Under the pieces are notes generated by a model, which saw only the letters and a list, made by a program, of their open reading frames with translations, had not been told where the DNA came from and did no database searches. Shown piece after piece: positions 1-59,068 of a DNA stretch of 64,000 bases (position 1 is the stretch's first letter; each line of letters starts with the position of its first letter). The DNA is from Gammaproteobacteria bacterium. GTDB taxonomy: Bacteria; Pseudomonadota; Gammaproteobacteria; Steroidobacterales; Steroidobacteraceae. The stretch covers positions 1 through 64,000 of the forward strand of contig VBNH01000043.1 in assembly GCA_005878095.1 (NCBI GenBank), written 5' to 3'. The position numbers were made by a program, and so were the translations under genes.

Positions 1-2064
1 GACCGCTTCAATGCAATCGCCGATGTCATCCCGGCACCTGCGCAGGCACAGCCCGGTCGCGGCGTTTTTGCGCTCCGCACCGGAACAAGGGTGTCAATCC
101 CCCGAGATCCTCAGGCTGCGCAGATTGGGCGCTATTTCGCTGCTCTGCTGTTGCAGACCCGCGGAACTGCGCTCGACGTGGTGGAACGCACGGGCGCGAA
201 CCTGCCCGCGGGTGCGATCGTCTTCGCACTCGTTTCCCGCCGTGCGGAGCCGGACGCGGAAGACGTGAGATCAAGTGCGGAGGGCTACAGAATCGACGTG
301 TCAGCGCGGCGAGTCGTCGTGTCAGCAGGCGATCGGCGTGGCCTGTTCTACGGCGCTGTCACCCTGTGGCAGCTGTGCACCGCGAGTGCGCCCGTGCACG
401 GCACCATCAGGCTGCCCGCGCTGCGCATCGTCGATGCGCCGCGCTTCCGCTGGCGGGGCCTGATGCTGGACTCGGCACGGCATTTTCAGTCACCCGCATT
501 CATCATGCGTTATATCGACTGGATGGCGCTGCACAAGCTCAACGTGCTGGGCTGGCATCTGACCGATGATCAGGGCTGGCGGCTCGAGATCAGGAAGTAT
601 CCACGCCTCACCAGCGTCGGCGCCTGGCGGGTGCCCGCCGGCCGGGCGGCGGCGCGTGACATCGATCCGGCCACGGGACGGCCACGCCTGTACGGCGGCT
701 TCTACACCCAGGAGGACGTGCGCCGCATCGTCGCGCACGCCGCGGCGCGCAATGTCACCATCGTGCCGGAAATCGACATGCCCGGACATGCGACCGCGGC
801 CATCGTCGCCTATCCGCAGCTCGGCGTGACCGGCGATCCGCCGCAGGCGGTGCCGGCCGACTGGGGCATCTACGCGAATCTCTTCAACGTGGAGGAGCCC
901 ACGTTTGACTTCCTCGAGGACGTGCTGGCGGAGCTCATGGAGCTGTTCCCCGGAGAGTATGTCCACGTGGGGGGCGATGAGGCGGTGAAGGATCAATGGC
1001 AGTCATCGGCGCGCGTGCAGGAGCGCATGCGCGAGCTCGGCGTGGCGAATGAAGAGGCGCTGCAGGGATACTTCACGCGCCGCCTGGGCGAGTACCTGCG
1101 CGCGCACGGACGGCGGCTCGTGGGCTGGGACGAGATTCTCGCAGGCGGCGTGCCCGCGGACGCGACAGTCATGTCGTGGCGCGGGGTACAGGGCGCGATC
1201 GCCGCTGCTGCTGCCGGACACGATGCGGTGTTGTCCCCGGACCCGACGCTCTATCTCGACAGCCGCCAGGGCGGCTCGCCCAGTGAGCCGCCCGGCCGCG
1301 GCACCATCGAGACGCTCGCCGACGTGTATCACTTGGACCCGCTGCCCGGACCGCTGGCAACGGACCAGCGCCACGTGCTCGGACTGCAGGCGAACCTGTG
1401 GACCGAGCACGTACGCACCGAGGAGCGAGCGGCGTACATGACCTGGCCGCGAGCCGCGGCGCTCGCCGAGGTCGGCTGGTCGCCCGCGGCGCGGCTCGAC
1501 TGGGCGGATTTCCTCAAGCGGCTGCCCGCCGAGTTCGAGCGCTACCGCGCACTCGGCATTCACTATTCGGATGACGCGCTGGCGCCCGCGCGCAGCGTGG
1601 GACCGTACGAGCGCCACATGAGCCAGGATCTGAAGACCTGCACCGACAAGCTGGTCCTGTCGCTCGAGGATGACGCGCCCATCGAAGGCGCACGCGCCGT
1701 CTTCCTCATCGACATCATGAATCCCTGCTGGATTCTGCCGGCTGCCGATCTGTCACGCGTGTCGCGGCTGACCGCCGCCGTGGGGCAGGTGCCCTTCAAC
1801 TTCCAGATCGGCAAGGACATCGAAGCGATCAGGCTTAACCCGCCGCACACGCCTGCCGGAGAGCTCGAGGTGCGTCTGGATGGTTGTGAAGGCGAGCCAA
1901 TTGCGGTGCTGCCGCTGGCACCGGCAGCCGACAACGACGCGGTGACGGTGCTGCCGGCGGTGCCCCTGTCGGGTGCGCCCGGGCCGCACGAGCTGTGTTT
2001 CAGGTTCACCCAGCGCACGCTCGATCCGCTGTGGGCGATCGACTGGGCGCAGCTCGCGCCATGA
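1..2064 (+). CDS. Beta-N-acetylhexosaminidase (GH20), 5' truncated by window edge
   Basis: Frame is open to base 1 (DRFNAIADVIPAPAQAQPGRGVFALRTGTRVSIP...), so the GTG at 91 is probably not the true start. GH20 motifs: FRWRGLMLDSARHF, WHLTDDQGWRLEI, PEIDMPGHATA, HVGGDEAVKDQW. Confidence 0.93.
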   Translation, partial: DRFNAIADVIPAPAQAQPGRGVFALRTGTRVSIPRDPQAAQIGRYFAALLLQTRGTALDVVERTGANLPAGAIVFALVSRRAEPDAEDVRSSAEGYRIDVSARRVVVSAGDRRGLFYGAVTLWQLCTASAPVHGTIRLPALRIVDAPRFRWRGLMLDSARHFQSPAFIMRYIDWMALHKLNVLGWHLTDDQGWRLEIRKYPRLTSVGAWRVPAGRAAARDIDPATGRPRLYGGFYTQEDVRRIVAHAAARNVTIVPEIDMPGHATAAIVAYPQLGVTGDPPQAVPADWGIYANLFNVEEPTFDFLEDVLAELMELFPGEYVHVGGDEAVKDQWQSSARVQERMRELGVANEEALQGYFTRRLGEYLRAHGRRLVGWDEILAGGVPADATVMSWRGVQGAIAAAAAGHDAVLSPDPTLYLDSRQGGSPSEPPGRGTIETLADVYHLDPLPGPLATDQRHVLGLQANLWTEHVRTEERAAYMTWPRAAALAEVGWSPAARLDWADFLKRLPAEFERYRALGIHYSDDALAPARSVGPYERHMSQDLKTCTDKLVLSLEDDAPIEGARAVFLIDIMNPCWILPAADLSRVSRLTAAVGQVPFNFQIGKDIEAIRLNPPHTPAGELEVRLDGCEGEPIAVLPLAPAADNDAVTVLPAVPLSGAPGPHELCFRFTQRTLDPLWAIDWAQLAP

Positions 2065-2873
2065 CGCCCGTGCGCACCGTGAGGCTGCTCGCGCCGCTCG
2101 CCGGCTGGAGCACGCCCCTTGAGGAAGCACCCGATGAGGTGTTCGCCAGAGGCTTGCTCGGCGACGGACTGGCCATCGATCCGACCTCGGCCACGCTCTG
2201 CGCCCCCTGCGAGGGGGAGCTGATCGTGATCGCCGCCGCGCGACACGCCGTGACGCTCCGCACTCCGCAGGGGTGCGAGGTGCTGCTGCATGTCGGCATC
2301 GATAGCGTGGAACTCGGGGGGCAGGGTTTCGAGCTGCACGCGCAGCAGGGCGCCCGGGTAAGAGCAGGCGAGCCGCTCCTCAGCTTCGATCTGGATCTCC
2401 TCGCGCGGCGCGCCAAGAGCGTCCTCACCCCGGTGATCGTGAGCGCCGACGGCGGCTTTCGGATTGTGCGCCGGAGCTCGGGCTGCGAGCTCGCGGTCGG
2501 GGACTTCCTGATCGAAATCGCCGCGGATGTCACTACCGCCGCGGCGCCCGACGCTGCAGCCGCATCGGCAATATTGGCCGCCGCGTCCGCGCCGGCTGCG
2601 CCAGGCGACGCGACAATCGTGCGCCGCCTCAGGGTCGGCTTTGAGCACGGCATTTACACGCGGCCGGCGGCGCTGCTTGCAGGCTCGGTGAGGAGTCTCG
2701 CCGCGGACGTGCGCATCGCGGCGCACGGACGCGAGGCCAATGCACGCAGCATCGTGGCGCTGATGGCGCTCGGCGTCGAGCGCGGGGAGGAGATCGAGAT
2801 CCGTGCCACCGGGCCGGACGCCACGGTCGCCGTGCAGGCGCTGGCGGCGGTGCTGTCGGGGACGCTGTCGTGA
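2061..2873 (+). CDS. PTS EIIA(Glc-type)-HPr fusion protein with altered HPr active site
   Basis: EIIA motif VLLHVGIDSVELGGQGFELHAQQG; C-terminal HPr-like domain GIYTRPAALLAGSV...NARSIVALMALGVERGEEIEI. ATGA overlap with the upstream CDS. Confidence 0.88.
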   Translation: MTPVRTVRLLAPLAGWSTPLEEAPDEVFARGLLGDGLAIDPTSATLCAPCEGELIVIAAARHAVTLRTPQGCEVLLHVGIDSVELGGQGFELHAQQGARVRAGEPLLSFDLDLLARRAKSVLTPVIVSADGGFRIVRRSSGCELAVGDFLIEIAADVTTAAAPDAAAASAILAAASAPAAPGDATIVRRLRVGFEHGIYTRPAALLAGSVRSLAADVRIAAHGREANARSIVALMALGVERGEEIEIRATGPDATVAVQALAAVLSGTLS

Positions 2874-4633
2874 AGGCGCCGCTCGCCAGCCTGCAGAAGG
2901 TGGGCGGCGCCCTGATGCTGCCCATCGCGGTGCTGCCGATCGCGGGCCTGCTGCTGCGTGTGGGGCAGCCCGACCTGCTCGACTCGGCCTCCGTGGCCGC
3001 GGCGGGCGAGGCCATCTTCTCGAACCTCGGGCTGTTGTTCGCGATCGGCGTCGCGGTGGGACTCGCGCGCGAGAATCACGGCGCGGCGGGGCTCGCGAGC
3101 GTGGTCGCCTATCTGGTGGCGACCAAGGGGGCGGAGGTTCTGATCGCGGTGCCGGCGGCGGCGGTGGCCGATGTCAGCGGCCGCGCGCGCGAGCTGGCGG
3201 TCGCGGCGTACAAGGCGCACGAGCTCGCCAAGCTCAGTGTGCCGGCGGGCATCCTCTCGGGTCTGACCGCCGGAGCGCTCTACAACCGCTTCTACAACAT
3301 CAGTCTGCCGAGTTACCTCGCCTTCTTCGGCGGGCGGCGCTTCGTGCCGATTGCGAGTGGCTTCGCGGGACTGCTGCTGGCGGGCGCGTTCGGCACCCAG
3401 TGGCAGCACCTCGAGCAGGGCATGGATGTGCTCAGTCGCTCGGTGCTGCACGCCGGGGCGCTCGGCCTGTTCGCCTACGGCGTGCTCAACCGCGTGCTGA
3501 TCGTGACGGGGCTCCATCACATCATCAACAACATAGCCTGGTTCCTGCTCGGCGATTACCACGGCGTCACCGGCGATCTCAAGCGCTTCTTCGCCGGCGA
3601 TCCGCGCGCCGGCGCGTTCATGTCGGGCTTCTTTCCGGTGATGATGTTTGGACTGCCGGCCGCCTGTCTCGCCATGTATCACAGCGCGCCCCGCGAGCGG
3701 CGCCGCGCGGTAGGCGGACTGCTCGCTTCCATCGCGCTGACCTCGATCCTCACCGGCGTCACCGAGCCGATCGAGTTCACCTTCATCTTCCTGGCGCCGG
3801 TGCTGTACGCGGTGCACGCGCTGCTCACCGGAGTCGCCTTCATCATCATGAACGCCCTCGGGGTGCGGCTCGGTTTCGGCTTCTCCGCGGGCCTGTTCGA
3901 CTACGTGCTGAACTTCAGCCGCGCCACGCGGCCGTTGTGGCTGCTGCCGGTGGGCGCGCTGTATTTCGCGCTGTACTACGGACTGTTCCGCCTGGTCATC
4001 GTCAGGTTCGATCTGAAGACCCCGGGGCGCGACGCCCTCGAGAGCGGCGCGGCGCCGCCGCCGGCGGCCGAGCGCGCGCGCGCCTGGATCGGCGCGCTCG
4101 GCGGCGCCGCCAACCTCGTGTCGGTGGACGCGTGCACCACGCGCCTGCGGCTGTTGGTCGCGAATCAGGCGGCGGTCGATGAAGGTGCGCTGAAGCGACT
4201 CGGCGTCCGCGGGCTCGTGCGCCCGTCGGCCAACGCGCTGCAGGTGGTGGTCGGTGCCGTCGCCGATCAGATCGCCGGTGAGATCCGCAGCGCGCTGCAC
4301 GCTTCGGCGAGCTCTGCCGCAGTGCCCGCCGTCACCGCCGTTGCGCCGGGCACGCCGGCGCGGGCCGCGCCGGCAGCGGAGACGCCCGCGCTAGCGGCCC
4401 CGGATGCGGGGGCGCTCCTGGCCGCGCTCGGCGGCCGCGCCAACGTGCGCGCGGTGGAGGCCGCGGCGAGTCGGCTGCGCGTGAGCGTGGGCGATGCCGC
4501 GCTCGTCGACCGCGCCGCCATTCGTGGCCTCGGGCTGCGCGGCGTGGCGACACCGGTCGCGGGCTGCGTGCACGTGATCGTGGGTCCCGCCGCGGAGGCA
4601 GCGTGTGCGGGGCTGAAGAGGCTGCTGGGGTAG
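2870..4633 (+). CDS. PTS GlcNAc/glucose-type EIICBB permease
   Basis: EIIC motifs (LMLPIAVLPIAGLLLRVGQ, GVTEPIEFTFIFLAPVLY). First EIIB DACTTRLRL has Cys; second EIIB-like VEAAASRLRVSV lacks it. GTGA overlap with the EIIA-HPr gene. Confidence 0.9.
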   Translation: MKAPLASLQKVGGALMLPIAVLPIAGLLLRVGQPDLLDSASVAAAGEAIFSNLGLLFAIGVAVGLARENHGAAGLASVVAYLVATKGAEVLIAVPAAAVADVSGRARELAVAAYKAHELAKLSVPAGILSGLTAGALYNRFYNISLPSYLAFFGGRRFVPIASGFAGLLLAGAFGTQWQHLEQGMDVLSRSVLHAGALGLFAYGVLNRVLIVTGLHHIINNIAWFLLGDYHGVTGDLKRFFAGDPRAGAFMSGFFPVMMFGLPAACLAMYHSAPRERRRAVGGLLASIALTSILTGVTEPIEFTFIFLAPVLYAVHALLTGVAFIIMNALGVRLGFGFSAGLFDYVLNFSRATRPLWLLPVGALYFALYYGLFRLVIVRFDLKTPGRDALESGAAPPPAAERARAWIGALGGAANLVSVDACTTRLRLLVANQAAVDEGALKRLGVRGLVRPSANALQVVVGAVADQIAGEIRSALHASASSAAVPAVTAVAPGTPARAAPAAETPALAAPDAGALLAALGGRANVRAVEAAASRLRVSVGDAALVDRAAIRGLGLRGVATPVAGCVHVIVGPAAEAACAGLKRLLG

Positions 4634-4809: not shown

Positions 4810-5025
4810 ATGCTCATTCTCACACGCCGGGTTGGCGAGACCGTCATGATCGGCGACGACGTGACCATTACGGTTCTGGGGGTCAAGGGGAATCAGGTAC
4901 GGGTCGGCATCAACGCGCCCAAGAGCGTTGCCGTGCACCGGGAAGAGATCTACGAGCGCATCAAGCGCGAGCAGCAGTCGGACCTCTCGGACAAGCCCAA
5001 GGCCGCCGAGTACGTGCCGGTCTGA
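4810..5025 (+). CDS. csrA: Carbon storage regulator CsrA
   Basis: [51 protein letters not shown]; start moved to internal ATG 4810. Confidence 0.97.
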
Positions 5026-7881: not shown

Positions 7882-9549
<1,668 letters not shown>

Positions 9550-9830
9550 GGTGTTACCTCGGCTGGCCTTGGCGGCCAGACGTAGCGGGAACCAGTGATG
9601 ATAAAGGTCGGCGACCGGCACCGGCAGGACCACTTGTTCGATACAGCTCCGGGTCGAGGCGCGCAGCTGGACCGTGGCCACCCGAGCGGGCCGCCGGCTC
9701 GCTGTTCCCTGGCCTTGATTTCCGGTAGAATGCCGGGTCCCCGTGGGCTGCATGCCGCGCGGGGGACGGGTGGCTGGTGTCGCGCGGGCGAAAGTTCGAC
9801 GCGTGGCGCCCCCGAAAGAGGTGTGATCGG

Positions 9831-58765: not shown

Positions 58766-59068
58766 ATGACCAAGTCGGAACTCATCGAGATCATTACCGC
58801 CAAGCAGAAGCACCTGCCGGCGAAGGACGTGGAGCTGGCGCTGAAGCAGATTCTGGAGATCATGAGCGATGCGCTCTCGCAGGGGGATCGCATCGAGATC
58901 CGCGGCTTCGGCAGCTTCTCGCTGCATTTCCGGCCGCCACGCCAGGGACGCAACCCCAAGACCGGCGAGGCGGTGGCGCTTTCGGGCAAGCACGTCCCGC
59001 ACTTCAAGCCCGGCAAGGATCTGCGCGAACGGGTGAACGACGGCGCCGACCGGCCGATCCGCGACTGA
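58766..59068 (+). CDS. ihfB: Integration host factor subunit beta
   Basis: [70 protein letters not shown]; downstream of rpsA. Confidence 0.96.

Follow-up and report, generated by a model that had tools for sequence, protein, structure and literature searches.

It is rather likely that the GlcNAc PTS encoded in the window, the 64,000-nucleotide stretch of DNA analysed here, has lost the EI and HPr relay it once had and that its EIIA is now charged in trans by a glucose-type EIIA-HPr-EI fusion. The domain losses, the tyrosine at the phosphorylation site of HPr, the single EI, the single His-bearing HPr and the intact active residues of EIIA and EIIB are directly observed. Taken together, the sequences suggest that uptake of GlcNAc, the chitin sugar, probably depends on phosphate relayed by the glucose-type system in the same cell.

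The EIIA-HPr fusion and its tyrosine motif

The fusion gene (2061–2873, forward strand; 270 amino acids) is an open reading frame matching Pfam PTS_EIIA_1 and PTS-HPr, and it is devoid of the EI domain into which its relatives run on. The EIIA domain of the crr/Glc type (residues 8–128; 2082–2444, forward strand; PF00358, EIIA_1, 137 bits) retains both H62 and H77 (LHVGID), near-invariant across the alignment, in agreement with the initial annotation, which had described the EIIA His as intact. It is followed by a linker (residues 161–181; 2541–2603, forward strand), probably disordered as judged from the model (pLDDT <50), which alignments show to be shorter in the two nearest orthologues. 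The HPr-like domain comprises residues 188–265 (2622–2855, forward strand; PF00381, PTS-HPr, 70.4 bits, cut-off 23). In the frame of the ATG at 2061, the codons GGC ATT TAC ACG CGG CCG GCG, starting at 2649, give the motif GIYTRPA. The TAC at 2655–2657 (forward strand) encodes Tyr199 and aligns with His15 of HPr, which confirms the annotated replacement of the phospho-accepting residue, and the following codon, ACG, specifies Thr at a position where relatives carry Ala. The Ser of HPr position 46 is kept as Ser230 (AGC, 2748–2750, forward strand); it is invariant in the alignment, and the initial annotation had described the segment around it as preserved.

The same motif, GIYTRPA, occurs in the two nearest orthologues (90–92% identity), namely G040 (L039, VBMV01000056) and G046 (L040, MNCZ01000099). 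Together with G000, the genome of the window, these are separate assemblies of different species within one genus, probably soil-dwelling to judge from sample names that give a depth in cm. Tyr is therefore conserved in the three closest genomes, the point on which the initial annotation had proposed a check, and the Tyr proteins form a single clade in the tree (support 100/100). Across the genus, His occupies the site in 30/30 other nag-type homologues in which it is readable; in the rate alignment, His15 and Ala16 are each found in 24/24 His-bearing nag-type relatives, with Tyr and Thr confined to G000, G040 and G046. A search of 369 genomes of the class with a nucleotide pattern for this motif gave 17 matches, of which only the window's own fell in an HPr domain. 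A sequencing or assembly error at 2655–2657 would need a single transition, CAC to TAC, but the assemblies of two other species show the same codon change and, at the following codon, the same replacement of Ala by Thr; these orthologues rule out a read error, which is reduced to a vanishing probability. Because the His is missing, the domain cannot pass phosphate on in the manner of an ordinary HPr, a consequence that had been correctly anticipated.

Loss of the EI domain and the gene neighbourhood

The initial annotation had overlooked a second and larger loss. The His-bearing relatives are long EIIA-HPr-EI triple fusions, except where a contig end or an assembly gap truncates them, and among the nag fusions the EI domain is missing in exactly G000, G040 and G046. 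In these three the stop codon of HPr (2871–2873 in the window) overlaps the start of the EIICB gene. In the relative G031 the EI stop takes this place, overlapping the EIICB start at the same spacing, and for this reason the arrangement would most simply be explained by deletion of the EI domain from the nag fusion gene. The order GH20, EIIA-HPr-EI, EIICB and hut genes is kept, EI included, in G027, where HPr itself spans an assembly gap. With EI gone, loss of the HPr His would be tolerable.

In the window, the cluster begins with a GH20 beta-N-acetylhexosaminidase (1–2064, forward strand; PF00728, 384 bits), whose 5' end lies outside the window. The GlcNAc-specific EIICB (2870–4633, forward strand; TIGR01998, 622 bits, cut-off 553), the start of which overlaps the EIIA-HPr stop, has a first EIIB domain, EIIB1, with the motif DACTTRLR and its active residue intact. 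A second EIIB-like domain (4340–4630) lacks the active Cys and reads AAASRLR for DACTTRLR; the second EIIB copy of the glucose-type EIICB on contig C10 (L008, 9027–10841) is likewise Cys-less. The GlcNAc PTS genes are followed immediately by csrA (4810–5025), and this in turn by the hut genes.

The probable phosphate donor

Each of the three genomes contains one EI and one additional HPr. Both are domains of a second EIIA-HPr-EI fusion, on contig C10 in G000, whose GLHARPA motif is intact, and these are the only EI and the only His-bearing HPr found per assembly. The neighbouring EIICB is of the glucose type (TIGR02002 and NF008301 above cut-off). HPr profile searches of G000, G040 and G046 found no free HPr. 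An HPr-like match at 58829–58903 of the window (13.3 bits) is below cut-off and fails the E limit of 0.01, and a PEP-utilizer match on C45, considered as an EI, is a PEP synthase by its sequence, the PF05524 search having matched C10 only. Of the free HPr and EI that were to be sought in the genome, only EI was thus recovered, and only inside the second fusion. The earlier proposal that a free HPr charges the EIIA is not borne out; the donor is probably the glucose-type fusion, since the sole His-bearing HPr is one of its domains. The assemblies are 82–95% complete and a free HPr or EI could sit in the missing parts, which is made less likely by the absence of both from all three assemblies.

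On this basis a course of events can be proposed, in which the window protein would be a degenerate member of the NagF type. The ancestor would have possessed an EIIA-HPr-EI fusion powering the adjacent GlcNAc EIICB. In a lineage that had a glucose-type fusion as well, the nag fusion would then have lost EI, and its HPr the His (His to Tyr). In the glucose-type fusion, PEP would phosphorylate the EI domain, and the His-bearing HPr domain would pass the phosphate in trans to the EIIA of the window protein, which in turn would charge EIIB of the GlcNAc transporter. The tyrosine-bearing HPr would be folded and non-transferring, retained either as an aid to the EIIA in its folding, stability or docking, or because the change is recent. 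In favour of this course, the EI count is at most one in every relative (ten genomes checked). G015 and G051 have the second fusion type only, and among the genomes searched the possession of both systems coincides with loss of EI from the nag fusion. This coincidence belongs to one clade and perhaps represents, for that reason, a single evolutionary event. A precedent has been published: in Enterobacteriaceae and their relatives, FruB/FPr lost its EI (PMC2405797). On the other side, the two systems share only ~40–43% identity over EIIA-HPr, so that trans-phosphorylation is not assured. It might also be that the glucose-type EIIA charges the GlcNAc EIIB and that the EIIA of the window is dispensable, but the conservation of the latter speaks against such a bypass.

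Structure, divergence and present role of the HPr domain

An HPr fold is confidently predicted for the tyrosine-bearing domain (AlphaFold pLDDT about 83–97 across the domain), and Foldseek comparison with solved HPr structures gave TMt values up to 0.94 at an rmsd of 1.0. Between G000, G040 and G046, dN/dS is 0.11–0.19 for EIIA, indicating strong purifying selection, 0.23–0.39 for the whole HPr region and 0.07–0.28 for its core (residues 195–263), the value for the whole being higher because changes cluster at the domain edges. In the core, 7/10 changes are synonymous (neutral P about 0.01, on small numbers), and residues 210–263 show zero amino-acid changes. Faster decay of HPr on the stem of the clade was not seen, the HPr/EIIA ratio of 1.29 lying mid-range among other branches (0–3.5, topology fixed). 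Given the confident fold and the purifying selection in the core, these models and rates indicate that the domain is not a plainly decaying relic.

The divergence of the segment has to be considered in this context. Between G000 and G046, dS is about 0.46–0.7 in GH20, EIIC, csrA, hutH and hutI, 0.23 in EIIA and 0.11 in HPr, and synonymous changes are less frequent in HPr than in EIIC (Fisher P 4e-5). For relatives whose fusions are intact, the HPr/EI dS ratio is 0.52–1.99. Transfer of the EI-less Tyr allele between these species by homologous recombination is suggested by this pattern; alternatively, the low EIIA-HPr dS could reflect constraint on synonymous sites. On the first reading, the three copies count for less as independent cases than do the genomes that carry them, and the evidence for selection is weakened accordingly. 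Between G000 and G040, GH20 (window 600–2000) is 79–91% identical per 150 bases, with a gene dS of 0.50, and the genes downstream of it are about 95% identical (dS 0.1), a contrast that marks a possible second recombination boundary. The hutU region (8200–9600) shows ~67% nucleotide identity to G046, against about 84% for hutH and hutI and 81–89% in a sliding window over the region; the ~67% figure may stem from a wrong or misaligned ORF pairing.

Two readings of the domain's present role are both compatible with the donation of phosphate by the glucose-type fusion and concern that role only. The domain may be inert, its persistence owed to nothing more than the recent origin of the allele, a possibility that falls somewhat short of even chances: loss of EI would have removed the need for the His, and the low dS of the HPr segment (about 0.09–0.12) implies little time for decay, but reading frame, Ser and core are intact in three species and the changes are mostly synonymous. 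More doubtful is a maintained pseudo-HPr that acts in the way of a non-transferring decoy: it would bind a partner, be it the glucose-type fusion's EI or some other partner of HPr, and recruit it, compete with it or regulate it. The intact predicted fold, the purifying selection in the core and the unaccelerated stem branch would all fit it, as would the clade-specific changes, which include HPr positions 15, 16, 47 and 56, on the partner-binding face of HPr. On the other hand, the changes are few and their enrichment on this face is not significant (P 0.11); the selection test loses force because the segment has diverged so little, and the constraint could stem from folding or solubility alone. 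Its extended form, in which the domain is a selected pseudo-phosphocarrier that ties GlcNAc uptake to the activity of the glucose PTS by binding the glucose-type fusion's EI or another of its partners, and in which the allele spread by interspecies recombination, is unlikely.

Regulation through the Ser had also been considered in the initial annotation. A Crh-like regulator, phosphorylated on the kept Ser by HPr kinase and controlling carbon use, would agree with the absence of His15 beside a retained Ser46, as in Crh, which is among the solved structural relatives. In G000 no match to HPr kinase scores above the cut-off (best PF07475 match 11.7 bits, cut-off 33.3), which weakens the proposal, and since every His-bearing relative has the Ser as well, its retention is no special feature; such a regulator is very improbable. 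Support of folding, or persistence as a relic, is ranked as likeliest for the domain, docking to EI as possible and Ser-based regulation as unlikely.

Significance and comparison with known systems

The gene cluster offers a natural case in which a self-contained sugar uptake system would have been made dependent on the phosphate donor of another by the loss of two relay modules, and hence a test case for the evolution of PTS cross-talk; it also provides a counterpart, in fused form and in a Gram-negative bacterium, to Crh, the HPr paralogue without the His. Full-text searches of open-licence papers yielded nothing relevant on a fused HPr with Tyr or without His. Within the literature so covered, the combination of EI loss and a His-less HPr in an EIIA fusion is undescribed.

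Multiphosphoryl transfer proteins of the NagF type, as in the NagF/NagE system of Ralstonia eutropha (PMC3222305), combine EI, HPr and EIIA in a single polypeptide. With proteins of this type the window protein shares a Glc-type EIIA fused to HPr beside a GlcNAc EIICB, the EIIA active His and, according to tree and synteny, common descent and neighbourhood. It differs in the absence of EI and the replacement of the HPr His by Tyr, and for these two reasons cannot be self-sufficient. In FPr, the EIIA is of the fructose type and HPr is an active phosphocarrier, unlike the Glc-type EIIA and Tyr-bearing HPr found here. The likeness to FPr (FruB without EI, Enterobacteriaceae) lies in the loss of EI from a fusion (PMC2405797), and FPr too still holds a heavily altered domain. 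From the HPr phosphocarrier itself the domain retains the fold but not His15, which is Tyr in three genomes. With Crh of Bacillus and relatives, which in Parageobacillus has Gln in place of His15 (PMC9631020), the domain shares the HPr fold, the lack of His15 and the kept Ser46 (Y199 and S230 in the window protein); Crh is a free protein working with HPr kinase and CcpA, whereas the domain described here carries Tyr and is fused to EIIA, and no kinase was found. Finally, the EIIA corresponds to EIIA-Glc (Crr) in its fold and both His residues, with 1f3g as the best structural match (40% identity), and is distinguished from it by fusion to a pseudo-HPr.
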